Shown one piece after another: positions 2,512-22,100 of a DNA stretch of 23,887 nucleotides (positions are counted from its first letter, which is position 1; every line of letters starts with the position of its first letter). Below the pieces are notes generated by a model. It did no database searches and had not been told where the DNA came from. It worked only from the letters and a program-made list of their open reading frames with translations. The stretch comes from a virus. Position numbers and translations under genes: made by a program. The stretch is taken from positions 1-23,887 of IMG/VR virus record IMGVR_UViG_3300020378_000042, one strand, 5' to 3'.

Positions 2512-5500
2512 ATGATCGACACCAGCCGTCAGAGAGTCAAAATCAGTCAGGTAATTGAAAACCAATTACCTGAGTTTGTTCAAGCAGAAAGTCCACTTTT
2601 TGTGGACTTCATGAAACAATACTACATTTCACAGGAATATCAAGGTGGTCCTGTTGATGTAGCGGAAAATCTTGACAGATATAATAAATTACAGACTTTT
2701 GTCGGTGCAGCTCTTACCGTTTGTACTGGATTATCTACAGACATACAATCATATTCCGATACCATCTTTGTTGAGACCACAAAAGGTTGGCCAGACAAAT
2801 ATGGTCTCTTAAAAATTGATGATGAAATCATTACATACACTGGAATCGGTACAACTTCGTTTACTGGGTGTATTCGTGGATTTAGTGGTGTAGATTCTCT
2901 TGATAGAGCTACTAGACCAGATTTGGTGTCTTTCCAGAGCACTGTTGGTGCTGCACATACTGGTGGTACAAAGGTTTTCAACCTGTCCAACCTGTTCATA
3001 CAAGAATTCTTCAATAAACTGAAGACAACCTTTGCGAACGGGTTCCAGAACAGAACTTTAGACGGTTCCATTGATGAAGTTCAATTCATCAGACAGATTA
3101 AAGATTTTTACAGAACAAAGGGAACAGAGGAAGCGTATAAAATCCTGTTCAAGGTTCTGTTTGGTTCTGAAGTCAATGTTATTAAGCCATCAGACTTCCT
3201 TCTGAAACCCTCTGATGGTGATTATAGTTTCACTCAAGATTTTGTTGCAAAACTGGTTACAGGAGATCCTAGAGCGTTAAAAGGATCTACCCTATTCCAA
3301 GATACCGACGCTGATGATAAGACCATTCCAGGCGCTTCTGGCGCTATCTCAGACGTTAAGGAGTTCATGTATGATGGTGAGAGATATTATCAGATTAGTC
3401 TGACTGAAGAGTCGATTCAAGGAAATTTTGTGATTCCTGGAAGAACCAGACTTACTGATTCCGTCTCTATTGGCGCAACTGTAATCACAGTTGATACCAC
3501 AGTTGGATTCCCAACATCTGGTACTCTGAATCTTGTCCAAAATGATATTGTTGGTGTCACTTCTTACACTGGTAAGACTTCCAACCAATTCTTAGGTATC
3601 ACTACAACGCCACAGACATATAGTGTGTCTGATGAAGTCAGATATGGAAATGTAGCTTACGGATATTCTGCAGGTAACATCAGTAAAAAAATTGAAGTTC
3701 TCATTACTGGTGTTCTTGGTGGATTTGACGTTCCTGAAGACACTTACTATTTCAATAAGGGTGATCGCATCAGAGTCGGTAACCTCGGTGTGATGAAGGT
3801 TTCCCAAGATCAGAGTTTTAACTCCTGGATTCATAACACTGCAGTCAAACACGCACCAATTTCGTTTATTAGAATCTCATCTGATTCCTTTAGTGTTTCT
3901 ACAGCAGCTGATAATGATTTCCTACAGAAGGATACAATCGAAGTTCTGAACAGTGATTCCGAAATCATTGGCACAGGTAAAATCACCAGTGTTGTAAGTA
4001 ACGGTACTTTTGTTCTTGGTGAACTCCCTGGCATTGATCCATCTAATGTCACTTTCATTAGAAGAAGAGTTCTCAGAGGTAATAGCACTGTTCACGAGAA
4101 CATCACCAAGTATACAACTGATGTTCAGAACACTTATGATCATGAGAGTGGTAAGAAGAATCCAAAACCACCTCATCCACACGTTTATACAACTTCTCCA
4201 TCGATTCCAAGTCTTGGTCAAGAACCAATCACAGTTTCTGATCGTTCTATCACCTGGACTGGTGTAACTGGTGGCAACACTATTCAACTTATTCAAGTTA
4301 CCGATGGTGCAAAAGACCATGGATTCTATTCTGGTGAAGTAGTCACCTTTAACATCATTGAGGGATCTCTTGGTGATTTACAGAACGGCAAAAACTACTT
4401 CATTAAAAGAGTAAGTTCTAATGAGGTTCAACTTGCAAACTCTTTACCAGATTTGGTAAATGGCACCTTCGTAACTGCAATTGGTTCGGGAACGTTCAAA
4501 CTTTCCGTTCCAGATCTTGCTAACAAAAAGTTAGAACACCAAAAACTCATCAAGAGATTCCCACTGAATCCTAGTTTCAACGGTAGACAACAGGATACGC
4601 CAACAGGCACAACGGGAATGTTGATCAATGGAACAGAGATCAGCAACTATAAGTCTGGTGATGAAATTTTCTTCGGTGGAATCAAATCTATTGATGTTCT
4701 TGAAGGTGGAACTGGGTATGATGTCATTGTACCACCAACAGTAACTATTTCTGCTTCTGCTGGAGTAGGAGCAAGTGCAACTGCTAACGTAAGAGGATCT
4801 TTTGAAAGAATTGATATTATCGATCCTGGATTTGACTATGTTGAACAACCTTCTGTTGAAATTTCTGGTGGTAATGGATCTGGTGCGGTTGCAAGAACTA
4901 TTCTAAAACAAGTTGATCACTCGATTGACTTTGATGCTTCTGCAACGAGCAATAGAATTAGTATTTCTAATGATACGATTGGATTCTCCACGTATCACAA
5001 ATTCAGAGATGGTGAGGCTGTCATATATCGCACGTTTGGTAACACTGCAGTTGGTATTGCAAGCACGGCAGGAGTTACTGGTATCCAAGTCAGTCCTGAT
5101 AGAAGACTGATTGACAAATCAGTATATTTTGTTGCAAGAATCAATCCATCGACGATTAAACTTGCAAATAATGAAAATGACGCTCTGACCAGATCGAATC
5201 TACTTAACTTCACCGCATTTGGTGATGGTATTCAACGATTTGAGAGTTTACGGAAAAAACAAGTCATCGGTAGAATCGTAATTGAGAATCCTGGTGAGGG
5301 ATATGAAAATAAGAGAAGACTTGTACCTACATCAGGTATCAACACATATTCCGACTTTATTGAATACAAGGATCATGGATTCAATGATGGTGATCTGATT
5401 CGTTATTCCAATGAAGGTGTTAGAATTGGTGGTCTTGAAACCACTCAGGACTACTATGTCCTTAGAGAAGATGGTGATAAGTTTAGACTCGCAGCTGCAG

Positions 5501-8500
5501 GTATCGGAAGCACTCTTTCGCGTGCAAATTATGATACAAAACAGTATGTTGGCATGACCTCCGTTGGTGAAGGTAAACACATCTTCAATTACCCACCAAT
5601 CACGGTAGCAGTCAGAGGTAAGTTGGGTATCAACACCGATACCACAGAAAACTATCATGCCATAACCTCCCCAATCGTTAGAGGTGGAATCACTGCAATT
5701 AACGTAGAGGAACCTGGTGTTGGATATGGTTCTTCTGATGTATTCAACTTCTCTATTCCACCAGAAGTCAGAGTTTCTTCTGGATCTTCCTCAGAATACA
5801 AAGCTATTGTACAAAACGGAAAAATCCAGTCTGTTATCGTTACCAGTGCTGGAACTGAATACACCTCTGCACCTGATCTAACTATTTTCGGTGATGGTGT
5901 TGGTGCAAAGGTCATTGCATCCATTAGTAATGGAAGTATTGATAAAATCACTGTAACGAATGGTGGTGTTGGATATTCAACATCTCAAGTTGTTGTATCT
6001 GAACAATTACCTGGTTCAGGTGTTAAGTTCTTGACGAAAGTCAACGATTGGCAGATTAACAACGTCAAGAGATACGAAGACATCATTCAACCTGATGATG
6101 GATTCTTGATCAGAGGTGATAATGATAATGGTATGAAATTTACCAGTTTCTATGCACCTAGAGAACTCAGAAAACTTATTCAACAGAAGAATAGTGATGG
6201 AACAAAAGATTATGCTCAAAGTGATTTAAATCTTGTCAACAATGCGGAAGAAGGTTCTACAAAACACTCTCCCATCATTGGTTGGGCATATGATGGAAAT
6301 CCAATTTATGGACCATATGGATATGACAGGAAAGACGGTGGTATCGCTCGCCCAATGCGGTCTGGCTACGTCCTGAAGACCTCTAGAGAGAACGGACCAC
6401 CCATTGGTCAGTTCCCTCTTGGTTTCTTCATTAAGGACTATGAATATCAGGGTAATGGTGACCTGGATAGAAATAATGGTCGTTTCTGTATCACACCAGA
6501 CTATCCAAACGGAACTTATGCATATTTTGCTACAATTAACCCAACTGAAAATGAGACTAGTGGAACATTCAAAAATTTCCGTGCTCCACAGTTCCCATAC
6601 TTAATTGGTGACAAGTATGCAGCCGATATTGATCCTTGGAACTTTGTTGAGACCAATGGTCAAGATTTTAGAGACCTTAACTCTCTTGACTTGAGAAGAA
6701 ACACGTATCCATACAAACTCTCTAAACCAGGTGCTTCCTATGAGGGTGTTTATCAAAGTAGAGATAGAGTTTTACAAGAAACCGTAGTTAATTACTCTAC
6801 TTCGAGTGGCATTGAAGATTACATCATCGAAAGTGCTGGAACTGGTTATAAAGTAAATGATCTATTGAGAGTTGTCTCAAATGATTCTGGTAATGGATAT
6901 TCTGCAAAAGTATCGCAGGTCAGTGGCAAAAATATCGTATCAATTGCTTCTACTGTAGCAAAAGTTGAAAATATTGTCTTTGAATATGATAACTTTAAGG
7001 CAAGAGTCGTTGGATTTGCAACGGAACCACATGGATTGTCTGTTGGTGATGTTGTAACCGTTTCTGGATTGTCTACAGATTCTCTGAGAAGACTTGATGG
7101 TAGACACACCATTGGATTTAGCACCGCATTCTTACTGTTGTCCACTGGTATAGGAACAACTGGTTCTACTGGTATCGTTACTGATCTCCACGTTTCTGGA
7201 AATCTTGGGCCTGACAACATCACTCCAGATGACATTATCGGCATCTCTACCGAACAGATGCTTGTCATGAACATTGACAATCTGAATAACACTATTCGGG
7301 TCAAGAGAGAATTTGATGGTGTCTTAGGAACAGGACATAGTGGAACATCTTTGATCACTGTTTTAAACAGAAAAATTCAATTCAACGTTGGATTGAATAC
7401 AAATATCGTAACAAACAGAAATACTTCTCGATATTTCAATCCAACAGAGAGTCTTGCACTTGGTAATACTGCTGGTGTTGGTATTGGGTCTACGATCTTC
7501 TATACATTGGGAGCCCCTGGTGGTATTGCAACGTCTAGGTTTATTCCAACTCAAAACATCTATGCACCTGGACATGGATTTGTAAATGGTCAAAAACTTC
7601 TCTATAGCAGTGATGGAGATACTTCAATCCAGGTCTATAATGGAATTTCTACCTTCAATCTTCCAAACAACTCCTTTGTTTTTGCGATCAATGATGGCAA
7701 AGATCTGTTAGGCATTTCCACCAATCCACTTGGTATAGGTTCTACTGGTGCGGTTACAGGTATTGGATCCACAGCATATAAACTGTTCTTTACTGGATAT
7801 GGATCTGGTAAGGTTCATAGTTTCAAACCACAAAAGGATGAAATCACTGGATTTGTAGAGAAAGTCGTTGGAACCGTAGTTTGTAAGGAACCTCATGGTT
7901 TGATTGCAAACGATAGAGTCATCATGTCGGTGACACCTGGTATTTCATCTTCTTACTATGTCAAATATGACGACATAACGAAGAGAACAATTATCAATCC
8001 TAAGAACTTTGGTTCTGCAGGTATCAACACAAATACTGACACCATAACCATTCAAGATCATGGATTTGTTACAGGTGAAAAGATTCTTTATTCTTCCACC
8101 AACCCTGCTCTGCCTCTTGTTGATAAGGAAAACTATTTCGTCGTAAGAATTGATAAAAACACCTTCAAACTCGCAGAAACGTATTACAAAGCCAACCTGA
8201 CCATACCTCAAGTTGTCGGTATTACCTCGGTTGGTAATAATCATGAAATCGGACTCATCAATCCACTTTTGAATTTGACTCGTGGATATAAAGTTGGTTT
8301 TGCAGTTTCTGACACATCTCTTGGACAGACTGTTGCAGGAAAGAGAAGAAAAGTATTTGACTTTGAACTGTTTGGTGATAAGAATTTCACCAAACCATAT
8401 TTCTTGAATACAAATGATGGAAGTTTCCAAGTTGTTGGAGTTGGAACTGTTGGTGTGACAACCACAGCAAGAGTTGATTTCTCTGTAACACAAGACACTC

Positions 8501-11500
8501 CCACACAACTGTTCTATAGACTTAATCCAGTCAATCTGAATATCATCAGTGCAGATAAGAATAATCCTGTTACTGATAACGACGTTATCAATGCAGCAAG
8601 TATCAAGATTAGAGAAAGTGGATATAATGGAACGTTTACGGTTTCTGGTGTAGGCAGCACCAGTTTCTCTTTTAATATTCCAACATTACCTGAAAGAGAT
8701 GGTTACACCTCAGACGAAGCCACTACTCTCAAGTATGACACAACTGCCACGCAAGTTTCTGGCCCTATTGAACAATTACAGGTAATTTCTAAGGGTAAGG
8801 GATACAGAGTCCTGCCTACGGTCACATCTATTGGGTCTACATCTGGTGTTGGTGGCATTATCAAACTGTCCAGTAGAAATCTGGGTGCTCTGAAGACCAC
8901 CACTATCAAGAACATTGGATTTGACTACTCCCCAGATAAGACTCTTGAACCTGAGGTTCAGTTACCTCAAATCATGCGTCTGAACAGACTCTCAACTATT
9001 GATAGTATCGGTGTAAGTTCTGGTGGTAGAAACTACACTGGTGGCCCAGGTTTAGTTCTGATTGACAGAGTAACAGGTCAAGTAAACCCTGATACACGAT
9101 TTGAAACTGAAACTCAAGGCACATCTGTGTCGCAAGTAAATATCTTGATAAACACTTCGGGTCTTTACGATACAGATCCACGTCTTGTCCCTGTTAATAA
9201 CTCAAACGGTGTCAAGGTTAGTGATGCAACAATTAATAGTTCTACCAATATAGTTACACTAACTCTTGATGGAACATATACCGAAGATACCTATCCATTC
9301 TTTGTTGGCGGAGAGATCTTTGTAGAAAATATTGGTATTGCATCCACTGGTAGTGGATATAATTCTTCGGACTATGGATATGATTATTTCACAGTCACTG
9401 GTGTTTCTACAAATGCTGGTGGTGGCGGTGCAACTGTATCGTACCAGTTAGATTCTTCAGTTACAAACGCAGGTATCTTTAGTGGTGGTAGTTCTTCTGG
9501 TAGCGTGGCTCGTGCAGAGGATCTTGCAATATTCGAAGTAAAGGTCAAACCAAATAATTTTAGTGAAAATGAAATTATCAGCACTGGAGATAAGAGAGGA
9601 ACAGTTGTAACTTGGAATGATAAAAACAAGTATCTTAAAGTTGTTTCTGATGATGTCTTCAACGTTGGAGATGTTATTAATGGTCTTTCCTCTAAGTCTG
9701 CCGCTATTATTACTGAAATAAACAGATATTCTTCTAAATTCAACATCACACCGTTCTCTGAAGTCAGAAATGGTTGGCAAAGAGAGACTGGTAAACTCAA
9801 TAATGAACTACAAAAAGTTCAGGATAGTGATTACTATCAAACGTTCTCTTATTCACTTGAAAGTGATATTGAATATGAAAAGTGGAAAAACCCCGTCAAT
9901 AGTCTGAATCATGTGGTTGGATTTAAAAACTTCTCAGACTTGTCTCTGGTTTCTGTTGCAGGAACAGACTCTAAGAACAGAAGTAATGCAAGAGTTGGTG
10001 TTTCCTCTGCTGTTGCTACGGTCAAGACAGATCTTGTTAGTGAAACGGAATCTATCCATAACACTTATGACTTTGACTTAGTTACTGAAAATTCTAAAAC
10101 TGTCAATGGTGCTCTCACTAGTGATGTCATTAACTTCTCTAATAAAATTCTTACAGACTACATTGAGTCCAGAACCAATAGAGCTATCTCCATCGATAGT
10201 GTAAGTTCTCAGTTTAATGATCTCCCAAGAGCTACTGCATTCTCTGATATTGCGGACTTTAACTTAGATGTAGTTCGTGGTGGTAAGTTTTATATCATGG
10301 CATTTGATAGACGTTTCTCTGGTGAGAAACAAATTCTTCAAATGAACGTGCTTCACGATGGCACTAATGGTTTCTTGATGCCTTTTGGTAGAGTTGAAAC
10401 AACAATTGATTTGGGTGAATTTGATTTCTCAATATCTGGAAATGTTGGAAACATTAGATTCCTTCCCGCCAAATCTAAGAACAATAACTATGCGATAAGA
10501 ATTTTCTCTCAACAGATGTTCAATAATACCACTACCGCAGGTATTGGTTCTACAGACGTTGGCACAGGATACAAGATTGTTTCCACTTCAACTGGTATTG
10601 GATCTACAGATCCATCTCCTGTACAGGTTGTCGGATTCAGTACAACCACGACTACTACATCAAAACTGTTTGTTCTTACAAATGAACTCGGTGGTCAAGA
10701 AAGAAGTCAGTTGAATGAGTTAGTTGTACACCAAGATGGATCTGAGGTATATGTCCTGGAATATGGACAGATGTTGAATGATAACATATCTGGTACAAAT
10801 GCACCAAGTGTCGGTCTTGGAACTTTCGGTGCAGATATCACCTCTGGTATTACAACAGTTCATTTTACTCCAGTAACTGGTGTTGGTGTCACGATGAGAG
10901 TTCATCAGACATCTATCGATTCTAGTGCTACAGGTATTGGAAGCACTCTGGTTTCTCTGACTCAGGTTCTCACCAGCACAACATCCATCGGTGCGACCGC
11001 TACACCACAAGCTACTAGAATCAGTGGATTCCAGTCTAGTACCTATCAAGCCGCGGATTGTCTTATTGAAATCAACGATACGACAAATGACAGAAGTGCA
11101 GTTACTCAGGTCACTCTGATTCACGATGGCACTGACATTTTCTTCAGTGAATTCGGTTCTTTCGATACCTTCAATGGATCTGGTATTGGAACAATTGGTG
11201 TTGGATATTCTTCCACATCTGGTGGTGATTTGGAACTTAGATTGACTCCACCTGCAAACACCGCAGTCACTACAAAGGTATTCCAGTATAACTTCACTGA
11301 AACTGGAACTGGTGGTGTTGGTTTTGTTACCTTCACTAATTCTGAGTTACGTTCTCAAGAAGGAACATATACAGGAACTGATAATGACATCAAGTTCTCC
11401 TTCCCACTGAAACACAGAGGAGATAGTGTATTCCATAAAGTATTTGATGCTTCGGATGCAGGATCGGTTGATGTAACCAACGATACTCTGATTATCAACA

Positions 11501-14500
11501 ATCACTTCTTCACAACTGGTGAAGAACTTACGTACACACCAACTGGTGCTGGTACAACAATGAGCATTGGTATCACTACCGCAACCATTGTTGGATTTGG
11601 AACCACCGATAAGTTACCATCTACAGTTTACGCAGTTAAGATCGCTGAGAACAAGTTCAAAGTTTCTGCAAGTGCAACTGATGCATTGGCTGTAGTTCCT
11701 GTCACTCTTGACATTAATGCGGTTGGTGTTGGTACAACACATGCATTTACTTCTAAGAATCTCAACTCTAAGATGTTGGTAACTCTGGATAACAATATTC
11801 AGAGTCCTGTCATTCAGTCTCCAGTCAATACCGCACTGTCTTTTGATGTCCTCACCACAACTGACTTTGTAACTCTTGCTGGTGTTTCTTCATTCTTCTC
11901 TGGTGATGTTATCAAGATTAATGATGAGTTTATGAAGATTGATACTGTTGGTATTGGATCTACCAACCAGATGCTTGTCAAGAGAGCTCAGTTGAACTCT
12001 GCACTGGCAAATCACACTGCAGGTGCTACAGTTACTAAGTTCATCGGTAATTATCAGGTTGTTGAAGATACAATCAACTTTACGGATGCACCTAAGGGTG
12101 AGAAAGGTCCAGTTGGACTTACTACAACATCTACGTTTGTTGGTCGTGCGTTTACAAGAACTGGTATTCCTCAAGGAACTCAAGATACGTATGCAAACAA
12201 CTACGTTTTTGATGATGTATCCAACCAGTTTACTGGTGTTGCAACTGCATTTGTTCTTCAGTCTAACGGACAAAATGTCACTGGAGTCGCGACAAATAAC
12301 GGCGTAATCCTGATTAATGAAATCTTCCAGAATCCTGCATCTCCAGATGACTACATCATCTCTGAAACCGCAGGCATTACCTCGATTAGATTTACTGGTG
12401 CAGGTGTATCCGTAAGTTATGATGTCAACTCTTCCTCTATTCCTAGAGGTGGTGTTATCGTTTCTGTTGGTGAAACATCGTCCTTCGGATATCAACCTCT
12501 GGTAGCTGCAGGTGGTACTGCGATTGTTTCTGCTGCAGGAACAGTTGAATCAGTCTCCATCGGTAATAGTGGTTCTGGATATCGAGTTGGTGTTCAAACT
12601 AACATTCTGGTCAAGGCGATTGGTTCTTCTGGAATCGTAACTGTCGGTCGTGCAAATGTATCTGCAGGACTTGTTACCTCCGTAACCATCATCAATGGTG
12701 GTGGATCTGGATTTACTTCTGCAACTCCTCCAACACTTGAGTTCGAACCACCCCTCAACTATGAGAATATGAGATTGGTTGGTAGTAATTCTGGTATTGG
12801 TGCATCTGTTTCTGTACGTGTTGGTTCCGCAACTAGTGTAATTAGTTTCAACATCACCAACTATGGATACAACTACAAGATTGGTGATGTATTAGAACTG
12901 GCAACAGATAATCAAGCAGGTATTCCAACTGATGCATCTGCTGGTGCAGCATTCACATCATTCAGACTCACTGTCGATAACGTATTCAACGATAGTTTTG
13001 GTGGTTGGACGTTTGGTGAGATTGAAAAACTGAATACTTTTGAGGATCAATTTGATGGAGTGAAGAGATCGTTTGCTCTCACTAAGACCATTGGTGCAAG
13101 TGCAACACCTCTGACCTTGAGAGCTGCAAAGGGTTCTCCGATCAAAGTTGAAGATAACATGTTGGTATTCTTGAATGATATTCTCCAGATCCCATCAGAA
13201 AGTTATGTTATGAATGGTGGTGCTCAGATCACATTCTCTGAAGCACCTAAGTTTGGCGATAAAGTAAGAATTTACTATTATCGTGGATCCGATAATGATG
13301 TTATTGAAGTTGATATTTTAGAAACAGTTAAGGCGGGTGATTCTCTGACCATCAACAAGTATCCTGACTTTGGAGTTGATTCAAGATTCCAACAAGTCAA
13401 TAGAATTGTAACAGGCATTACCACCTCAGATTCCGTAACAACAAATACATATCAAGGTGTTGGTATTTCTACTGATCCAACTCTTGAAAGACCTGTTACT
13501 TGGAAAAAACAACTCTCTGATGTGTTTGTAAACAACACTGCAGTCACTAAGGACAGAACTGAACTTGAGGCTGGTATTAGACCAACCGCGTATATCTTGA
13601 ATAATGTTGGTGCATCTTCCACAGAAGTTTTTGTTGATAGTGCAGTCCCTCTGTTCAATGAGGTTGATGATTTTGTTGAGTCTAAACAGAGTGTTGTGAT
13701 TCTTGACAGAACTGTCAAGACAGGAGCTGCTGCAACTGCAATTGTTTCCGCAGGTGGTACGATCACCAGTATCGTAATTTCGGATGGTGGTTCTGGATAC
13801 ACATCTGCACCGTCTGTTTCTATTGGTGTAACCGCTGGTATCGGAACAATCTTTGCTGGTATTGGAATCACAATCAATACAAATGCAACCGCAACATCCA
13901 CTATTTCTGGAGTCGGTACAGTTTCTGCAATCACGGTTTCTGATGCTGGTGTTGGTTATACAAACACTAATCCACCAGGTGTTCTCATTGCACCAGAAGC
14001 TCAAACTGATGACACACTCTCTAGTGTTAAATATGAAGGTGATTTTGGTATCATCACTGGTATTGGAACAACTTCCGTTGTTGGCATTGCAACCACTGGA
14101 CTGACATTTGATCTGTTTATTCCTTTGGATTCTACTCTCAGAGATTCTTCTGTGATGTCCACACCGATTACAAACAGTGGTATTCAAACTGGATATTACT
14201 TCGTGGTCTCTAATTCATATACTGGAACTGGTATCACAGCATACGGAGATGCATCTGGTGCATCGCCTGTAGGTATTGGAACTTCCTTTATAGATAATAT
14301 CTACAAGGTAATGGCAGTAGAAAACGTTACTGGTAGTGCCATCGGCGTTGGTGAAACAACTCTGAGAAGAGTTACTGTCAGTGTAAGTTCTACAATCGGA
14401 GTAAGTCTGGGAAGTAGTGAAAGGTTTGGTCAGTATTCCTGGGGTCGTTTGCATGACTTTGTGAGATCTGACACCAAGGCCTTCACTGCGATTACAGATG

Positions 14501-14571
14501 ATGGTGTGACTGGAATTATCACTGGACCTGTCATCGTTAGAACCAGAGACCTTAAAGAGTCCTACATTTAA
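2512..14571 (+). CDS. Giant structural protein, probable gp7 counterpart with YHYH domain and repeat modules
   Basis: One unbroken 4019-residue reading frame lies between gp6 and gp8, the position of gene 7 in T4. The N-terminal part is non-repetitive: LPEFVQAESPLFVDFMKQYY (about 19-38), then DFYRTKGTEEAYKILFKVL (198-216), which closely resembles the T4 gp7 segment DFYSTKGIEASYKFLFKVL as I remember it. After that come many short beta-type modules: about sixteen Gly-x-Gly-Tyr repeats, eight His-Gly-Phe modules, three tandem His-Asp-Gly modules (nt 10284-11310) and eight exact GIGST turns. A YHYH-type domain lies at about residues 1246-1340. Near the C-terminus is a fibre-type motif (VFLNDILQIP...ITFSEAPKFGDKV, nt 13160-13290), and the protein ends in a non-repetitive segment beginning YSWGRLHDFV. 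I see no signal peptide or membrane segment. It is surely a virion protein of the baseplate or its arms. The gp7 link is an inference from position and motif. The ATG at 2512 has only a weak purine stretch (GCGGA) before it. Confidence 0.95.
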   Translation: MIDTSRQRVKISQVIENQLPEFVQAESPLFVDFMKQYYISQEYQGGPVDVAENLDRYNKLQTFVGAALTVCTGLSTDIQSYSDTIFVETTKGWPDKYGLLKIDDEIITYTGIGTTSFTGCIRGFSGVDSLDRATRPDLVSFQSTVGAAHTGGTKVFNLSNLFIQEFFNKLKTTFANGFQNRTLDGSIDEVQFIRQIKDFYRTKGTEEAYKILFKVLFGSEVNVIKPSDFLLKPSDGDYSFTQDFVAKLVTGDPRALKGSTLFQDTDADDKTIPGASGAISDVKEFMYDGERYYQISLTEESIQGNFVIPGRTRLTDSVSIGATVITVDTTVGFPTSGTLNLVQNDIVGVTSYTGKTSNQFLGITTTPQTYSVSDEVRYGNVAYGYSAGNISKKIEVLITGVLGGFDVPEDTYYFNKGDRIRVGNLGVMKVSQDQSFNSWIHNTAVKHAPISFIRISSDSFSVSTAADNDFLQKDTIEVLNSDSEIIGTGKITSVVSNGTFVLGELPGIDPSNVTFIRRRVLRGNSTVHENITKYTTDVQNTYDHESGKKNPKPPHPHVYTTSPSIPSLGQEPITVSDRSITWTGVTGGNTIQLIQVTDGAKDHGFYSGEVVTFNIIEGSLGDLQNGKNYFIKRVSSNEVQLANSLPDLVNGTFVTAIGSGTFKLSVPDLANKKLEHQKLIKRFPLNPSFNGRQQDTPTGTTGMLINGTEISNYKSGDEIFFGGIKSIDVLEGGTGYDVIVPPTVTISASAGVGASATANVRGSFERIDIIDPGFDYVEQPSVEISGGNGSGAVARTILKQVDHSIDFDASATSNRISISNDTIGFSTYHKFRDGEAVIYRTFGNTAVGIASTAGVTGIQVSPDRRLIDKSVYFVARINPSTIKLANNENDALTRSNLLNFTAFGDGIQRFESLRKKQVIGRIVIENPGEGYENKRRLVPTSGINTYSDFIEYKDHGFNDGDLIRYSNEGVRIGGLETTQDYYVLREDGDKFRLAAAGIGSTLSRANYDTKQYVGMTSVGEGKHIFNYPPITVAVRGKLGINTDTTENYHAITSPIVRGGITAINVEEPGVGYGSSDVFNFSIPPEVRVSSGSSSEYKAIVQNGKIQSVIVTSAGTEYTSAPDLTIFGDGVGAKVIASISNGSIDKITVTNGGVGYSTSQVVVSEQLPGSGVKFLTKVNDWQINNVKRYEDIIQPDDGFLIRGDNDNGMKFTSFYAPRELRKLIQQKNSDGTKDYAQSDLNLVNNAEEGSTKHSPIIGWAYDGNPIYGPYGYDRKDGGIARPMRSGYVLKTSRENGPPIGQFPLGFFIKDYEYQGNGDLDRNNGRFCITPDYPNGTYAYFATINPTENETSGTFKNFRAPQFPYLIGDKYAADIDPWNFVETNGQDFRDLNSLDLRRNTYPYKLSKPGASYEGVYQSRDRVLQETVVNYSTSSGIEDYIIESAGTGYKVNDLLRVVSNDSGNGYSAKVSQVSGKNIVSIASTVAKVENIVFEYDNFKARVVGFATEPHGLSVGDVVTVSGLSTDSLRRLDGRHTIGFSTAFLLLSTGIGTTGSTGIVTDLHVSGNLGPDNITPDDIIGISTEQMLVMNIDNLNNTIRVKREFDGVLGTGHSGTSLITVLNRKIQFNVGLNTNIVTNRNTSRYFNPTESLALGNTAGVGIGSTIFYTLGAPGGIATSRFIPTQNIYAPGHGFVNGQKLLYSSDGDTSIQVYNGISTFNLPNNSFVFAINDGKDLLGISTNPLGIGSTGAVTGIGSTAYKLFFTGYGSGKVHSFKPQKDEITGFVEKVVGTVVCKEPHGLIANDRVIMSVTPGISSSYYVKYDDITKRTIINPKNFGSAGINTNTDTITIQDHGFVTGEKILYSSTNPALPLVDKENYFVVRIDKNTFKLAETYYKANLTIPQVVGITSVGNNHEIGLINPLLNLTRGYKVGFAVSDTSLGQTVAGKRRKVFDFELFGDKNFTKPYFLNTNDGSFQVVGVGTVGVTTTARVDFSVTQDTPTQLFYRLNPVNLNIISADKNNPVTDNDVINAASIKIRESGYNGTFTVSGVGSTSFSFNIPTLPERDGYTSDEATTLKYDTTATQVSGPIEQLQVISKGKGYRVLPTVTSIGSTSGVGGIIKLSSRNLGALKTTTIKNIGFDYSPDKTLEPEVQLPQIMRLNRLSTIDSIGVSSGGRNYTGGPGLVLIDRVTGQVNPDTRFETETQGTSVSQVNILINTSGLYDTDPRLVPVNNSNGVKVSDATINSSTNIVTLTLDGTYTEDTYPFFVGGEIFVENIGIASTGSGYNSSDYGYDYFTVTGVSTNAGGGGATVSYQLDSSVTNAGIFSGGSSSGSVARAEDLAIFEVKVKPNNFSENEIISTGDKRGTVVTWNDKNKYLKVVSDDVFNVGDVINGLSSKSAAIITEINRYSSKFNITPFSEVRNGWQRETGKLNNELQKVQDSDYYQTFSYSLESDIEYEKWKNPVNSLNHVVGFKNFSDLSLVSVAGTDSKNRSNARVGVSSAVATVKTDLVSETESIHNTYDFDLVTENSKTVNGALTSDVINFSNKILTDYIESRTNRAISIDSVSSQFNDLPRATAFSDIADFNLDVVRGGKFYIMAFDRRFSGEKQILQMNVLHDGTNGFLMPFGRVETTIDLGEFDFSISGNVGNIRFLPAKSKNNNYAIRIFSQQMFNNTTTAGIGSTDVGTGYKIVSTSTGIGSTDPSPVQVVGFSTTTTTTSKLFVLTNELGGQERSQLNELVVHQDGSEVYVLEYGQMLNDNISGTNAPSVGLGTFGADITSGITTVHFTPVTGVGVTMRVHQTSIDSSATGIGSTLVSLTQVLTSTTSIGATATPQATRISGFQSSTYQAADCLIEINDTTNDRSAVTQVTLIHDGTDIFFSEFGSFDTFNGSGIGTIGVGYSSTSGGDLELRLTPPANTAVTTKVFQYNFTETGTGGVGFVTFTNSELRSQEGTYTGTDNDIKFSFPLKHRGDSVFHKVFDASDAGSVDVTNDTLIINNHFFTTGEELTYTPTGAGTTMSIGITTATIVGFGTTDKLPSTVYAVKIAENKFKVSASATDALAVVPVTLDINAVGVGTTHAFTSKNLNSKMLVTLDNNIQSPVIQSPVNTALSFDVLTTTDFVTLAGVSSFFSGDVIKINDEFMKIDTVGIGSTNQMLVKRAQLNSALANHTAGATVTKFIGNYQVVEDTINFTDAPKGEKGPVGLTTTSTFVGRAFTRTGIPQGTQDTYANNYVFDDVSNQFTGVATAFVLQSNGQNVTGVATNNGVILINEIFQNPASPDDYIISETAGITSIRFTGAGVSVSYDVNSSSIPRGGVIVSVGETSSFGYQPLVAAGGTAIVSAAGTVESVSIGNSGSGYRVGVQTNILVKAIGSSGIVTVGRANVSAGLVTSVTIINGGGSGFTSATPPTLEFEPPLNYENMRLVGSNSGIGASVSVRVGSATSVISFNITNYGYNYKIGDVLELATDNQAGIPTDASAGAAFTSFRLTVDNVFNDSFGGWTFGEIEKLNTFEDQFDGVKRSFALTKTIGASATPLTLRAAKGSPIKVEDNMLVFLNDILQIPSESYVMNGGAQITFSEAPKFGDKVRIYYYRGSDNDVIEVDILETVKAGDSLTINKYPDFGVDSRFQQVNRIVTGITTSDSVTTNTYQGVGISTDPTLERPVTWKKQLSDVFVNNTAVTKDRTELEAGIRPTAYILNNVGASSTEVFVDSAVPLFNEVDDFVESKQSVVILDRTVKTGAAATAIVSAGGTITSIVISDGGSGYTSAPSVSIGVTAGIGTIFAGIGITINTNATATSTISGVGTVSAITVSDAGVGYTNTNPPGVLIAPEAQTDDTLSSVKYEGDFGIITGIGTTSVVGIATTGLTFDLFIPLDSTLRDSSVMSTPITNSGIQTGYYFVVSNSYTGTGITAYGDASGASPVGIGTSFIDNIYKVMAVENVTGSAIGVGETTLRRVTVSVSSTIGVSLGSSERFGQYSWGRLHDFVRSDTKAFTAITDDGVTGIITGPVIVRTRDLKESYI
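2547..2573 (+). other. Perfect 11-bp inverted repeat inside the giant gene start
   Basis: Arms TCAGGTAATTG (2547-2557) and CAATTACCTGA (2563-2573) are exact reverse complements around a five-base loop, AAAAC. The element covers codons 12-21 of the giant gene. It has no following T-run, so it does not look like an intrinsic terminator. It could form an mRNA stem-loop affecting translation or processing. Confidence 0.6.
2589..2609 (+). other. Second inverted repeat, 8-bp stem, 15 bases after the first
   Basis: Arms AAGTCCAC (2589-2596) and GTGGACTT (2602-2609) are exact reverse complements around TTTTT. An 8-bp stem of this kind can occur by chance a few times in a sequence of this length. Its closeness to the 11-bp repeat, with the same five-base loop length, is what makes it notable. 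Confidence 0.5.
4678..6000 (+). repeat. First cluster of Gly-x-Gly-Tyr repeats in the giant protein
   Basis: A repeat of 25-45 residues has the form I-x-S/A-I-x-V-x-(N/D/E)-x-G-x-G-Y-x-(S/T)-x-P-x-V-x-(I/F), often followed by a Gly/Ala-rich stretch. Examples here are IDVLEGGTGYDVIVPP (4693), IDPGFDYVEQP (4820), IENPGEGYENK (5281), INVEEPGVGYGSS (5698), VIVTSAGTEYTSAP (5836) and ITVTNGGVGYSTS (5947). Further copies occur near 6811, 8767, 8900, 9000, 9133, 9319, 12544, 12676, 12836, 13762 and 13921. The same repeat is found in gp8 and in the DUF4815 protein. Confidence 0.75.
6250..6540 (+). other. YHYH-type domain within the giant protein
   Basis: Residues about 1246-1340 contain SPIIGWAYDGNPIYGPYGYD, then NNGRFCITPDYPNGTYAYFAT. 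This matches the YHYH domain layout (G-x-AYDG-x-PIYGPY ... NGR ... PD-x-x-x-GTY) found in bacterial secreted proteins and annotated in many cyanophage structural proteins. The signature YHYH tetrad is YAYF here, so both His positions are lost. The domain's biochemical role is not established, and the loss of His argues against a metal site in this copy. Confidence 0.8.
10284..11310 (+). repeat. Three tandem His-Asp-Gly modules in the giant protein
   Basis: Three copies align as K/D-x-F/L-(8-12 residues)-x-S-x-x-x-x-Q-x-x-V-x-H-x-DG-x-x-x-x-x-x-x-FG. The key His codons are at 10354 (VLHDGTNGF...PFG), 10729 (VVHQDGSEV...EYG) and 11122 (LIHDGTDIF...EFG), spaced 125 and 131 residues apart. Gly/Thr-rich linkers with GIGST turns separate them. 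Regular spacing suggests a rod-like tandem array. Confidence 0.7.
13701..13720 (+). other. Near-perfect 20-bp palindrome in the giant gene
   Basis: TCTTGACAG (13701-13709) and CTGTCAAGA (13712-13720) are exact reverse complements separated by AA. It encodes an ordinary stretch (ILDRTVKT), so codon constraint may explain it. The symmetry also puts TTGACA on both strands, but no matching -10 element is evident. Confidence 0.4.
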
Positions 14572-14599: not shown

Positions 14600-16171
14600 A
14601 TGTCAGCTATTATAACTGATCAACTTCGTATTTTAAATTCGGAGAGCTTTATCTCTGGAGTGGGTTCTACTGCAAACAGTTATTATGTTTGGATTGGTTT
14701 ACCCAATGCGACTGAGTTTGACTCTGATTGGGCAGAAAATCCGCCCGCTCCAAAGGATTCTTTTGGTGAAGAAAGAGATCATTGGGATACAATGCTTGCA
14801 TTGAAAAGAATCAATGCAGCTGATACTGCTAGAGTTGTTAGAAAAATAAACTGGTCTTCGGGTACAACTTTTGAGATGTATCGAGATGATTATTCTCGTT
14901 CAAATATATCTCCAGTAACTAGTTCTACAACTTTATATGATACAAATTATTATGTGATGAACTCTGATTATAGAGTTTATATTTGTCTGCAAAATGGAAC
15001 TAATCCAGAAAACCCCGATGGTAGACCATCTCTCGATGAACCATTGTTCACGGATTTGGAACCAAGATCTGCAGGCACATCTGGTGATGGGTATATTTGG
15101 AAATATCTCTTTACAATCAAACCAAATGATCTGATCAAGTTTGATTCTACTAGCTTCATTCCTCTTCCATCGGATTGGTTGAATAACAATGATGTTGCAG
15201 CTGTAAGAAATAATGCAGCGACTAGTGGTCAATTAAAGATTGTAACTATCACCAATAGAGGTGTTGGTTATGGTACTGCTACAACATATAACAACGTCCC
15301 TATTGCAGGTGATGGATCTGGTGGCAAAGCGTCCGTAGTTGTAAACGCTGCAGGTAAGATTGACTCTGTTGAGGTCACGAACGGTGGTTCCAACTATACA
15401 TTTGGAACAGTTGATTTGGGTGCCGTTGGTCTTACAAATGCGTCTGGTTCCACGGATGCTGAATTCAACGTAATTATTCCACCACAAGATGGTCATGGTG
15501 CGGATGTCTATAGAGAACTTGGTGCAAGTAGAGTTCTTATCTATTCTAGACTTGAAAATGATGTAACTAATCCAGACTTTATTACAGGTAACCAGTTTGC
15601 AAGATTAGGTCTTGTAAGAGATCCATATGCTTTTGGATCAACAAATAAACTTACAGTTTCAAAAGCTAGTGCAGTTTATGCATTGAAACTTACTGGTGCA
15701 GGTTCCACTACAGCCACGTTTACTACCGATAGTGAGATCACTCAACAGGTTGGTGTTGGTTCCACTGCGGTTGGTAGAGTAGTTAATTATGATCCAGTCA
15801 CAGGTGTTTTGAAGTATTGGCAAGATAGAAGACTTGCTGGTTTCAATACAGACGGCACTCTCAATGCAAACCCCGAATATGGATTCTCTCTGTTCAGATT
15901 CACTGCAGAATCAGCAATTGGATCTGGTACAACGATCTTTGGTGGATCTACTACATTGAACATTGACACTAACTTTGGAACCTCTGCAGTTCCAGGTATA
16001 TCTACCTCAATAAATAATAGGACCTACTCTTTGGGTATGAGTTTTGTTGAAGGTTTAGCAAACCCAGAGGTTGAGAAGTACAGTGGCGATATTATCTACG
16101 TAGATAACCGAGCACCTGTTACTCGCAGTTCACAACAAAAAGAAGACATCAAAATCGTATTGGAATTCTAA
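14600..16171 (+). CDS. gp8: Baseplate wedge subunit gp8, enlarged by an inserted repeat module
   Basis: A 523-residue protein, against about 334 for T4 gp8. T4 gp8 is a dimeric wedge component that binds gp7 and gp10. Family landmarks are the start YYVWIGLP (28-35), HWDTMLALKRI (61-71), GDGYIWKYLFTI (162-173; T4 GDGYVWEYLFEI), GNQFARLGLVRDP in the second half, and the C-terminal SGDIIYVDNRAPV...KEDIKIVLEF (495-523; T4 ends SGEMIYMENRPPI...). Between the first block and PPQDGHG (294-300), residues about 212-285 hold two Gly-x-Gly-Tyr repeats (TNRGVGYGTA and TNGGSNYTFG) like those of the giant protein, absent from T4 gp8 as I recall it. Additional Gly/Thr-rich sequence fills the region before the C-terminal block. 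It ends six bases before the DUF4815 gene. Confidence 0.94.
   Translation: MSAIITDQLRILNSESFISGVGSTANSYYVWIGLPNATEFDSDWAENPPAPKDSFGEERDHWDTMLALKRINAADTARVVRKINWSSGTTFEMYRDDYSRSNISPVTSSTTLYDTNYYVMNSDYRVYICLQNGTNPENPDGRPSLDEPLFTDLEPRSAGTSGDGYIWKYLFTIKPNDLIKFDSTSFIPLPSDWLNNNDVAAVRNNAATSGQLKIVTITNRGVGYGTATTYNNVPIAGDGSGGKASVVVNAAGKIDSVEVTNGGSNYTFGTVDLGAVGLTNASGSTDAEFNVIIPPQDGHGADVYRELGASRVLIYSRLENDVTNPDFITGNQFARLGLVRDPYAFGSTNKLTVSKASAVYALKLTGAGSTTATFTTDSEITQQVGVGSTAVGRVVNYDPVTGVLKYWQDRRLAGFNTDGTLNANPEYGFSLFRFTAESAIGSGTTIFGGSTTLNIDTNFGTSAVPGISTSINNRTYSLGMSFVEGLANPEVEKYSGDIIYVDNRAPVTRSSQQKEDIKIVLEF
15233..15465 (+). repeat. Gly-x-Gly-Tyr repeat pair inserted in gp8
   Basis: Two copies, IVTITNRGVGYGTA (about residues 214-227) and IDSVEVTNGGSNYTFG (254-269), are joined by a Gly/Ser/Ala-rich stretch (AGDGSGGKASVVV). 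The arrangement is the same as in the giant protein and in the DUF4815 protein near 22000-22190. Confidence 0.75.
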
Positions 16172-16177
16172 AGAACT

Positions 16178-19100
16178 ATGCCACAGGAAACTAACCTCAA
16201 CGTCAGCCCATATTTTGACGATTTTGATAAGGATAACAATTTTTATAAGGTTCTATTCAAGCCTGGAACCCCTGTTCAGGCTAGAGAATTAAGCACTCTG
16301 CAGTCTATTCTGCAGAATCAGGTTGAACAGTTTGGTACACACTTTTTTAAAGAAGGTTCTAAGGTTATTCCAGGTAACCTGTCATATGATAATAACTATC
16401 AGTGTATAGAACTTGAAGATACTTTCTTAGGAATTCCAGTTGAATTATATCAAGATCAACTGCAAGGACTCAGAATCACTGGTCTCAGATCTGGTGTTAC
16501 TGCGACTGTTAGAAGAGTTCTTTCTGCGAATGATTCTGAGAGAGGAAGCATCACTCTTTATGTAAAGTATGAGAAGTCTTCTGATGACTTTGTAACAGAA
16601 AAGTTTTTTGATGGAGAAAGTCTCACCACAGATAAAGATATTGTATATGGATTAAGTGTTATTGCTGCAGGTGAATCATTTGCAAATACCATTGCATTTG
16701 GTGCAACATCGACTGGTTCAGCCATGTCGGTTGGTGATGGTGTATATTTTGTCAGAGGTACTTTTGTACAAGTTCAGAAACAAACTCTGATTCTTGATCA
16801 ATATAGTGCATTACCTTCTTATAGAATTGGTTTCAACGTTGCAGAAGAGTTCGTCACTGCAGATGAAGATCCATCTTTGAATGATAATGCTTCTGGATTT
16901 ACAAACTTTGCTGCTCCTGGTGCAGATAGACTGAAAATTTCTATCTCTCTTGCAAAGAAAGTTCTTACAGATACTCAAGATCAAAACTTTGTAGAAATTG
17001 CTCGTGTTGAAGAGGGCGTTTTACAAACGTTCCAGAAGGACACTCAATATAATCTGATCACTGATACTCTTGCAAAGAGAACTTATGATGAGTCTGGAGA
17101 TTACTATGTAAAACCATTCCAACTTTTTGCAAAAGAATCTTTAAATGATCAGATTGGAAATAAAGGTGTTTTCCTTCCAACCCAAAAAACTCAAGATGGT
17201 GGAACACCTTCGGATGATTTGATGTTGATGAAGATTTCCCCAGGTAAAGCTTATGTACGGGGATATTCTATTGAAACCATTTCTCCACAGTATTTGGATG
17301 TAGAAAAACCAAGAACTACAAAAAATATTGAACAAGAATCTGTAAGTTATTCTACAGGCGATCCACTTTTTGTTAATAATATCTTTGGCTCTCCATCCCT
17401 GGGAATTGGAACAACAGCAACTGTTTCTTTGTTGAGTGGTAGAAGATCCGATTCCGCTGGTACTCTTTCTTCAGGATCTGAAGAGATCGGTCTTGCAAGA
17501 CTTTATGATTTCAAAGCACAGTCCGCAAGTTTTGTTAATTCAGCGACCACATATGAAACTAGAATGTTTGATATCAAAACATTCACTAAAGTTACTGTAG
17601 GAACTGCAATTACATCTGTAATAGCATCTGATCACATTCAAGGTGCTAGAAGTGGCGCAACTGGATTTGTTGTAACTGGTGGTAATAACCTTACTGAATT
17701 GACTCTGATTGATGCAGCTGGTAAGTTTTTAAAAGATGAAACTATCTTAGTTAACGGCAATGCAAACGGTAGAGTAATTACCAAAGTAGTTGATTTTAAT
17801 TTTAATGATGTAAAGTCTCTTCGTAGTGCTGTTGGTGTATCAACATTTGAAGCTGACGTTGAGATTGATCAGGCTCGTCAGTTAGGTAATCTTTCGACTG
17901 GTAGTTTTCAATTAGTCAGCACTAGTGGTAATACTGGTAAGATTACAGTAGCTGGTCAAAACTTCGCAGGTATTGTTACATCTGGAAATATACTTAGTTA
18001 CAGTGTTCTGGGTAATACTGTTCCTACGTTTAACAGAATTACAGGCGTTGCAACTGATGGTTCTTTTGTCAATGTTGCCGGCGTATCCACAGTGTCTGGT
18101 GTTTGTGAGGGTGGTGTTCCTTCTGGAACAACAACTTTAAATGATGTTTTACTTAGAAGCACTACATTTGATCTTGGATCTAATAGTCTTCTGACTCCTG
18201 TTACCCACAAAAACTTAGAAAGTCTTGATGTAACTACTACCACTGTTCAATTTAGAAAACAGTATAGTAACATTAACGTTGTCAACAACTCGTTCACATC
18301 ACCGTCTGCAGGATCAAATCTTTTCTTCCAACCATTTGATGAGGAAAGATATTTCATCTCGTATGATGACGGTAGTGTTGAACCGTTAGAAGCTAGTCAG
18401 GTAACTATATCTGCTGATAAAAAGAATGTAAGTTTCGTTGGTCTCTCCAAAGCTTCTGGTAAGGCGAATCTGTTTGCTACTGTTCTGAAGGGAACTGTAA
18501 GAAATAAACAGAAAAATTTAAACACCGCAAATACTTTAATTGTTAATCGATCCAGACTCGATGCATCTGGTATCGGCACGAATACACTCAATGATGGTTT
18601 AACTTTCAGTCGAGTTTTTGGAACTAGAGTTCAAGATAGAAGAATCTCTTTGAATGTCCCAGACGTTGTAGATGTTATTGGTATTTTTGAGTCTGATGAC
18701 GCGACAGATCCTGATCTGCCAAGTCTGACTCTTGGTGCATACTCTGGGCCATCTGGTAACAACACAGATCTTATTGTCGGAGAAAAACTCACTGGAGTTG
18801 ACAGTGGAGCTGTTGCTGTTGTAGTGGAAAAACCAAACACAGTTGCTGTCGGTGTCGTTCCATTGAATGAATTAACATTTAATGATGGAGAAACTGTTAC
18901 TTCGGAACAATCTGGAGTTACTGCTCTTGTTGGTGCTTCTACAAAAGGAGATAAAAATTTAACAGATCAATACCTGTTGTTCACTAATTCCAAACCAACA
19001 TATTACGATTACTCCTTTATTCAAAGAAAGAGAGGATTTGAAGAACCTAGTAATAGACTAAAAATTGTCTTTAAGAACTTCTTTGTTAGTGCCGATGATG

Positions 19101-22100
19101 ATGGAGATTTCTACAGCGCTTCTAGTTATCCAGAAATTCATAGAAAGTTAATTCCACTAAATGTGGAAATGTCTCAAGAGGATAGAGTTCTTGACTCTGA
19201 CTTGGTTGATATTAGACCTAGAGTAAGTGCATATGATACGTCTTCCACTAAATCTCCATTTGATTTTGCTGCAAGATCTTTCGCTGGGTCTGGTGATAGT
19301 GTCCCTGATCCATTTGTTCCAGATGAATCTTTGATTGTATCTTATGATTACTATCAACCAAGACAAGACAGAGTATTCCTCGATAAGGATGGCACGTTTA
19401 GATACCTAAAAGGTGTGCCTGCGGATGATCCATCATATCCACCTTCTATTGCAGATGCTATCGAAATTGCTAAGGTAGATCTTCCTGCATATGTGTATTC
19501 AATGGATGATGTTTCTATCCAAAGGACAGAATATAAACGTTTTACAATGGCTGACATTGCAGAACTTGAGAAGAGAATTGAAAATGTAGAATATTATACT
19601 CAACTTTCGTTGTTGGAAAATGATACTGCAAATATGCAGATCACTGATGCAAACGGACTGAATAGATATAAATCTGGTTTCTTTGTTGATTCATTTAAAT
19701 CTCATGATGCACATAGTATCACTCACCCAGACTTCTCTGCCAGTATTGATGCTAATGAAGGTTATTGTAGACCAGGGCACTATACAACAGCTGTTGATTT
19801 AGTTATTGGTTCTCAGTCATTGATTGGCATCGGAACCACAGCCGATCCAACTATTGATACTAGTACCATTACTGATATTGATGGACAAAATGTAAGAAAG
19901 ACTGGTGAGTTAATTACCCTTGACTACACTGAAACTGAACTAATAAAACAGGTTTATGCGTCCAGGGTCGAAAATGTCAACCCATTCTTGATTGTTTACT
20001 ATGCGGGTGACATGAAGTTGAATCCAGACAGTGATGTCTGGGTTGATACTAAATTCCTTGATGCAAATGTTATTGAACAAACAGAAGCTTATGATGCTGT
20101 CGTTGGAGCTTTGGGTATCGATGAACAAACTGGTTTAAGTGAAATTAATTGGGGTTCTTGGGAAACCTATTGGACAGGTGAAAAAGCAGGTAAAATAAAA
20201 ACAACAGAAACTGTTAAAAATCTTGGAAAAATTCACCCAAGCAAACTTCCAAAAGGAACAAAATTAGCTACCAAACACGTAGCTAATGGTCACATGACCA
20301 GGAAGTTAAATGGTAGATGGGTTGGAAAAGGAAAAGGTGTTATTCTTAATGCGAAGTTAATCACTACTCAACAAGTACAAGAGATTACCACTACTACAAA
20401 ACAATCTAAAAAAGGTGTTCAATATAAAGTTACACCTACTGTTCAAAAGACATCTTTGGGTGAGAAGATTGTCAGTACAGATTTGATCCCATTCATGAGA
20501 AGTAGAAACATTGATGTTACTACAACTCGCATGAAACCAAGAACTCAGTTCTATGCGTTCTTCGATGGTGTTGACATGACTAAGTTCCTCACACCAAAAC
20601 TTCTTGAAATTGAAATGGTAAGTGGAGTTTTTGAGGTTGGTGAAACTGTTATCAGTGCTCCCTCAAAAGTTTTCACTGGTGGCAAATCTATTAAAGATGG
20701 TTTTACTTTTAGAGTCGCTGCACCTAACCATAAAGAAGGTCCTTATAATGCACCAACTAAGAAGTATGCATTGAATCCTTATAATCAAGATGCAGGCATC
20801 CCTGATGCATATTCAACATCTTCGACATTGTTGAATATTGATACCCATTCCATGCAAGAAGAAGCTTCGGGTGAGTTCTCTGGTTTTGCGAAGAAAAGTT
20901 CATTCCTCAAAGGAAAAACAAGTGGTGCTATTGCTAGGATAACTGAGGTTAGATTTATCTCAGATGGTCTTGGATTTGTAAGAGGTACTTTCTTCCTTCC
21001 AGAACCAAATAAAAAATCTAATCCTAAATTTGAAGTAGGAACAAAAACACTTAAACTTTCAACAAGTCAAGTTGATTCCAAAGTTGCTGGAACTGTTACT
21101 GGTTCTGCAGAAGCTAACTTCTATGCACAAGGCACATTAGAGACCAAACAAGAAGATATCATCAGCACTAAGGTTCCTAAGATTGAACACCTTACTCACG
21201 AAGAGAAGAGAGTTCTTCAAAATAAAATTACCAAGAAAATTGGCGGTGAGAAGAAACAAGTCACTGGTGTTCAATACTATGACCCTCTTGCACAAACCTT
21301 TATTGTTGAAGAGACCACAGGTGTCTATATCACATCTGTAGAAGTTTACATGCGAGATAAGGATACAGAAATTCCTTTGACCATGCAAGTCAGAACAGTT
21401 GAAACTGGTCTGCCTACTTCTAAGATTCTTCCATACAGTGTTGTTAACCTTGATCCAGATGAAGTTAACGTTTCTGAAGACGCTTCAATTCCAACCAAGT
21501 TTACTTTTGACTCTCCAGTATTCCTGACTGGAGGTGAGGAATACGCTCTGGTTCTTGTTACTCCATCAGAGAACTACACCTGTTGGATTTCTAGAATGGG
21601 TGAAGTTGATATCTCCACCGCTAATTTACCAGAAGAACAACAAGTTCTGATTAGTCAACAACCATATCTTGGTTCACTGTTCAAGTCTCAGAATGGTACG
21701 ACTTGGGATCCAAGTCAATATGAAGATATGAAGTTCACCATTTATAAGGCTGCGTTCAATACTGCACCTGGTGTTGCAAGATTCTATAGTCCACAACTTT
21801 CTGCGGGTAACAAACAAATTATCAATTTGTCACCAAACCCCATTGAAATTCTTTCAAGAAAGGCGACAGTTGGACTTGGAACTACGTTTGCTACACCTGC
21901 AAAATTTGTTCCTGGTGTCACTATAACTCAAGATGGTAATCTTACGGCATCTGCAAAACTTGTGGCTACTGCAGGTATTGCAAGTGTTGGTGGAGATACG
22001 TTCACCATCATTAATGCTGGTGTCGGATATACTCCTTCTGCAGCAAGTTTGGTTTACAATGATGTAAATCTTCCAACCTTGACTGGATCTGGTTCTGGAA

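Follow-up and report, generated by a model that had tools for sequence, protein, structure and literature searches.

Known gp7-type baseplate proteins

In phage T4, gp7 is a monomer present in six copies per tail, where it meets gp6, gp8, gp9 and gp10; as the baseplate opens, one gp7 domain swivels (PMC3004832). Counterparts of gp7 have been described in Vibrio phage XM1 (gp17; PMC10457771), in the T6SS (TssG; PMC6300606) and in P2 (gpI), all of them far smaller than the gp7 reported here. XM1 gp17 and TssG are part of a heterotrimer of the (gp6)2-gp7 type, with a helical part before the core sheet (PMC10457771, PMC6300606). The XM1 orthologue (242 aa) starts with the core-bundle helices, and both a loop inserted in its core domain and its C-terminus bind the tail spikes (PMC10457771). 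P2 gpI gave no significant match to our gp7 profiles, and the P2 link is taken from the literature only.

Cyanophage gp7s have already been deposited. GenBank names the orthologue of the protein studied here gp7 in S-SSM7, S-SM2 and P-HM1, and the label "gp7" or "baseplate wedge initiator" is found for these three phages and S-CAM9. The corresponding PHROG 2885 model spans 4179 positions and is labelled "baseplate wedge subunit". For S-CREM2, purified virions yielded 91 unique peptides of the orthologue, gp122 (PMC10665884). By contrast, a 2020 paper (PMC7029224) states that pelagimyophages and cyanomyophages lack T4 gp7 and that VrlC appears to replace it.

Gene order and coding status of the locus

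The window, i.e., the whole stretch of DNA analysed here, is a viral genome fragment of 23,887 bases (IMG/VR record IMGVR_UViG_3300020378_000042). Pfam and PHROG assignments gave the gene order gp25-gp6-gp7-gp8, all on the + strand. The gp25 homologue (sheath initiator, 67-465) was recognized by Pfam PF04965 (5.6e-10), the gp6 homologue (465-2495), which is the expected partner of gp7, by Gp6-like_1st (6.3e-18) and PHROG 219, and the gp8 homologue (14600-16171) by Phage-Gp8 (2.2e-12) and PHROG 438. Between gp6 and gp8 lies an ORF with an ATG start (2512-14571, + strand) that encodes 4019 residues and occupies the position of gene 7, as the first-pass annotation had proposed. It is followed, also on the + strand, by a VrlC-position protein with DUF4815 (16178-23737), whose positional counterparts in P-HM1 and HTVC008M are called VrlC. 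The nearest relatives of the window gp6 are those of Synechococcus phages S-8S53 and S-CAM9, with 55-57% identity, and the window comes from a cyanophage-type T4-like phage.

The ORF 2512-14571 is real and coding, and it is constrained at the protein level. In metagenomic relatives with 67-69% amino-acid identity, it remained uninterrupted across ~3,600 codons, over which substitutions at codon positions 1, 2 and 3 were ~0.26, 0.17 and 0.52, respectively. The protein is a member of the known family PHROG 2885. It resembles the members of this family and the GenBank gp7s of S-SSM7, S-SM2, P-HM1 and S-CAM9 over nearly the full length and in gene order, but whole-protein identity is only ~31-36%, and their annotation is silent on the two-piece core described below.

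Our interpretation, made with high confidence, is that this phage encodes its gp7 here, with a two-piece core split by an arm and with arms that would act at the baseplate periphery. The homology and order of both core pieces, the gene position, the single copy in complete relatives and the coding constraint were demonstrated in this analysis, and the presence of an orthologue in purified S-CREM2 virions by others. Roughly fourfold enlargement (4019 vs 1032 residues in T4) had been suggested from the sequence, and this holds.

The N-terminal core piece

Residues 198-216 of the protein read DFYRTKGTEEAYKILFKVL. The T4 counterpart, DFYSTKGIEASYKFLFKVL, spans residues 733-751 of gp7 (read from AF158101), and 14 of the 19 positions are identical. 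The first-pass annotation had given the T4 sequence and located the window motif correctly, but had put the T4 motif near the C-terminus, whereas it lies at 71% of the T4 gp7 length. The resemblance exceeded chance in single-sequence, profile and shuffling comparisons. In phmmer, the single sequence ranked gp7 first and second in the PDB with marginal E values of 0.012 and 0.019. The N-terminal family profile (34 rows), compared with all PDB sequences, returned gp7 (E 1e-7 and 6.6e-7) as the sole significant match; the weak hits on unrelated proteins, with E values of 0.026 and higher, were dismissed as chance matches. The profile-profile alignment of the N-terminal half with gp7 in hhalign scored 79.4, against a maximum of 29.6 among 147 column shuffles. 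Moreover, a profile from which all T4-type sequences had been left out recovered 29 of the 29 collected T4-type gp7s, the listed matches falling at gp7 ~720-775 with E values of 1e-8 to 1e-10.

Two segments of the gp7 core are recognizable in this region. The helix-turn-helix at residues 9-61 (2536-2694, + strand) is the counterpart of the helical core-bundle domain (Pfam Gp7_helical, T4 643-689) and is expected to supply the core-bundle helices that pack with two gp6. Its direct match to T4 was weak (domain scores of 3-4 bits), and the PF21428 profile did not reach the window protein in the Pfam search. The connection was bridged by the profile of Marzo/phiM12-type gp7s, which matched residues 9-61 with a domain E value of 8e-10 and extended over T4 gp7 645-760 (8.9e-14). 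The KGT segment (T4 733-760) is present at residues 163-239 (2998-3228, + strand), which include DFYRTKGTEEAYKILFKVL, and was recovered by the profiles, with Pfam PF23786 as further evidence.

AlphaFold2 modelled window residues 1-359 and Marzo gp7 (503 aa) with low confidence in the core, at mean pLDDT of 62 and 45. In a Foldseek search of 350,542 PDB chains, the same three chains, 5iv5_BJ, 9f4a_A0 and 5hx2_A, came first for both independent models; they are gp7 or gp7-size chains of T4-type baseplates. The best E values were 2.3e-5 and 1.5e-4, with a Foldseek probability of 1.00 for 5iv5_BJ and 9f4a_A0. Since the TM-scores to gp7 were low (0.13-0.20), this ranking supports the local fold only. 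Of the profile or structural match to gp7 that the earlier reading had anticipated for the N-terminal region, the profile match was significant, and the structural one consists of the first place in Foldseek, obtained from low-confidence models with low TM-scores.

A second core piece downstream of KGT

A second module, DSDYYQxFSY...W...HxxGF (YYQ/HPxG), was found at residues 2421-2484 (9772-9963, + strand) and is the counterpart of T4 gp7 862-892. It matched phiM12 (3.7e-29) and Marzo (1.7e-15), and against T4 gp7 its hhalign score of 38.3 compares with a shuffle maximum of 19.0 (n = 150). The bridge profile, made from Marzo- and phiM12-type gp7s, returned gp7 from the PDB with an E value of 2.2e-10 over T4 646-831, which covers the helical domain and KGT and runs into domain V, together with a second, collinear gp7 match at 862-908. 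Pfam places domain V (Gp7_5th) at T4 766-861, between KGT and the second piece. In the window, the slot equivalent to domain V starts at residues 240-310 (3229-3441, + strand), as seen in the alignment and in the bridge profile, which reaches through T4 831. A TIGR02242 tail domain was matched by 7 of 13 bridge gp7s, at best with 1.1e-5, which is below the curated cut-off and only suggestive.

The distance between KGT and the module varies widely: 125 residues in T4, 308 in Marzo, 572 in HTVC008M, 852 in phiM12, 1,688 in S-CREM2, 2,242 in the window and 2,767 in syn9. The two core pieces jointly make up ~5% of the window protein. Judged from sequence comparison, the gp7 core is split by an insertion of ~2,200 residues that holds the YHYH domain and sits in the slot of the 96-residue domain V of T4. 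The gp7-derived part had previously been confined to residues 1-260, which the piece at 2421-2484 does not support.

It is improbable that only the first 240 residues derive from gp7 and that the core is unsplit, with the YYQ module being an independent tail domain whose likeness to gp7 reflects chance or domain sharing. The direct match of the module to T4 gp7 (863-891) is indeed short, at 81% probability over only 29 columns, and such a module might occur in tail proteins generally. Nevertheless, it follows KGT in the same order as in T4 not only in the window but also in Marzo, X1, Rhizobium and Sinorhizobium phages, the pelagiphage and cyanophages; one profile returned both pieces collinearly in gp7; and the module scored twice the best of 150 shuffles.

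The window protein and T4 gp7 (PDB 5IV5, 5HX2) share the gene position, the order of helix-turn-helix, KGT and the 862-892 piece, and the adjoining gp6. Unlike in the window, the T4 core (645-892) is preceded by 640 residues that the window protein lacks, there is no YHYH domain, and the gap between KGT and the second piece is 125 instead of 2,242 residues. The gp7s of Marzo (503 aa) and phiM12 (1007 aa) agree with the window in the N-terminal start of the core and in both core pieces, but have slots of 308 and 852 residues, no YHYH and little or no C-terminal extension.

Insertions and the C-terminal extension

The first insertion slot, between the helix-turn-helix and KGT, holds a beta-rich insert of ~100 residues in the window (residues 62-162; 2695-2997, + strand), delimited by the alignment and hhalign. 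HTVC008M likewise has ~100 extra residues at this point and syn9 ~600, whereas Marzo, phiM12 and T4 have none. The second slot (residues 311-2420; 3442-9771, + strand) contains ~2,100 residues within the gp7 core, with repeated small beta-type motifs. Pfam matches of the repeats to FCCH, SecDF and sheath domains were below their cut-offs and were discarded.

The YHYH domain (Pfam PF14240, E 3e-24) occupies residues 1246-1344 (6247-6543, + strand). Because the second core piece lies at 2421-2484, YHYH and most of the repeats are located inside the gp7 core and not after it; the first-pass annotation had noted their presence correctly but not this placement. A short YDGxPIYGP signature occurs in the cyanophage gp7s checked except that of syn9, and is absent from gp7 of T4, Marzo, phiM12 and HTVC008M. 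The near-identity DNA matches listed for gp7 to isolate cyanophages fall within the YHYH stretch (6265-6324 and 6460-6529), with 86-96% identity over 48-70 bases, hinting that this stretch is under unusually strong constraint.

The C-terminal extension comprises residues 2485-4019 (9964-14568, + strand), i.e., ~1,535 residues past the module, where S-CREM2 and phiM12 have very few. In L074, L079, L081 and S-SSM7, what corresponds to the stretch from about residue 2945 (11344) onwards is encoded by a gene of its own further downstream, and the last part of the window extension therefore looks like a fused neighbour. In S-SSM7, a second "gp7" of 3001 aa (L085, 30087-39092) lacks both core pieces and is in part equivalent to the C-terminal arm of the window gp7. 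A phiM12-type gp7 of ~1307 aa in L134 (2243-6160) also carries a C-terminal extension, the apparent source of matches to DUF285/BspA-like leucine-rich repeats and the PARCEL repeat; it is possibly a lineage-specific surface-binding arm.

Relatives, copy number and the reported absence of gp7

A separate gp7 elsewhere in the genome, which would have spoken against the assignment, was sought in the genomes of eight relatives (seven cyanophages and one pelagiphage), and in all eight the core pieces were confined to the gp6-gp8 gene. In S-SSM7, they are in the first of its two "gp7" genes only. In S-SKS1, the gp6-gp8 gene is broken into several frames (L004, 15992-28387), with pieces of 710, 1601, 1113 and 739 aa that overlap by ~16-70 bases and with the first 7 kb unannotated, which are probably frameshifts in the record.

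Short gp7s occupy the same gene position in Stenotrophomonas phage Marzo (503 aa), Xanthomonas phage X1 (498 aa), Rhizobium phage RHph_I1_18 (528 aa) and Sinorhizobium phage phiM12 (1007 aa), and at the sequence level they make the relation to gp7 plain. The gp6-gp8 protein of HTVC008M (L167, 33435-36485, 1016 aa) contains the helix-turn-helix, KGT and YYQ pieces, and is labelled "head closure Hc2", as is PHROG 3465.

Our results contradict the absence of gp7 stated in PMC7029224, because the HTVC008M gp6-gp8 protein has both core pieces and the window VrlC ORF (16178-23737) has neither. That gp7 is truly missing, with VrlC in its stead and the giant protein being an unrelated fibre-like structural protein with a KGT-like motif, is very improbable: such a loss was stated for both pelagimyophages and cyanomyophages, plain BLAST does not cope with the divergence of gp7 and repeat-like sequence makes up most of the giant protein, but both pieces are in the gp6-gp8 protein, none occur elsewhere in the eight relatives' genomes, and HTVC008M, whose gp7 is mislabelled Hc2, is the cultured reference of that very report.

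Gain or loss of the T4 N-terminal domains

Neither T4 gp7 1-640 nor the C-terminal part (895-1032, domain VI) had a match in the window protein. The region 1-640 occurs in phages that infect enterobacteria, Aeromonas, Acinetobacter, Vibrio and similar hosts, and in none of the ten non-T4 genomes tested. In five other lineages, gp7 starts at or near the core. The proposal that the window lineage had lost the T4 N-terminal domains is probably backwards: since these five lineages and XM1 gp17 start near the core and 1-640 is absent from the ten non-T4 genomes, T4-type phages probably gained the domains, by a parsimony argument with XM1 as outgroup rather than a rooted tree. As the short gp7s also lack 1-640 and 895-1032, we treat both as features of the T4 lineage and not as defining gp7. 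In the literature searchable here, we found no description of a split-core gp7 with several slots or of the likely direction of change; the new part of this work is the split-core architecture.

Proposed arrangement and role

In the arrangement we propose, residues 9-61 and 163-239 would form the N-terminal part of the core, with the helix-turn-helix bundling with two gp6 and KGT following. The chain would then exit the core at the site of T4 domain V, or of the spike-binding loop of XM1, into an arm of ~2,200 residues with beta-type repeats and YHYH, and residues 2421-2484 would return to complete the same core domain. A second arm of ~1,500 residues would leave from the C-terminus. The core would be placed in a (gp6)2-gp7 heterotrimer, one per wedge and six per tail.

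By analogy with T4 and XM1, the two-piece core would anchor each wedge, and the arms from the domain V slot and the C-terminus would extend to the periphery. There they may make host contact or attach fibres, replacing the N-terminal domains of T4 gp7 and the gp9/gp10/gp11 pins. Anchoring through the core is a well-supported prediction from homology; for the arms, analogy suggests a role in host contact that may include YHYH, a probable host-recognition domain. A larger baseplate periphery, as envisaged by the first-pass annotation, is a reasonable expectation.

We see about an even chance that gp7 serves T4-like baseplates in general as an expandable scaffold, in which a small two-piece core offers fixed slots for lineage-specific arms that contact receptors or hold fibres, and which in cyanophages would make host-recognition modules such as YHYH a covalent part of the wedge. 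The slots would be those before the core in T4, between the helices and KGT in syn9, between KGT and YYQ in cyanophages, and after the core in many phages.

T4-like phages of the sea rank among the most abundant viruses. A firm placement of gp7 removes its supposed absence from them. For structural biologists, the split core indicates where the chain should exit and re-enter the wedge, and the YHYH-bearing arm is a candidate for host contact. Public labels such as "head closure Hc2" or "head and packaging, virion structural protein" misplace the gp7 family.

We also observed that a small beta domain is common to residues ~2107-2190 of the VrlC ORF (window 22490-22745) and to gp7 residues 71-143 and 310-364; gp7 and the VrlC-position protein, both of the baseplate, therefore draw on a common repeat.
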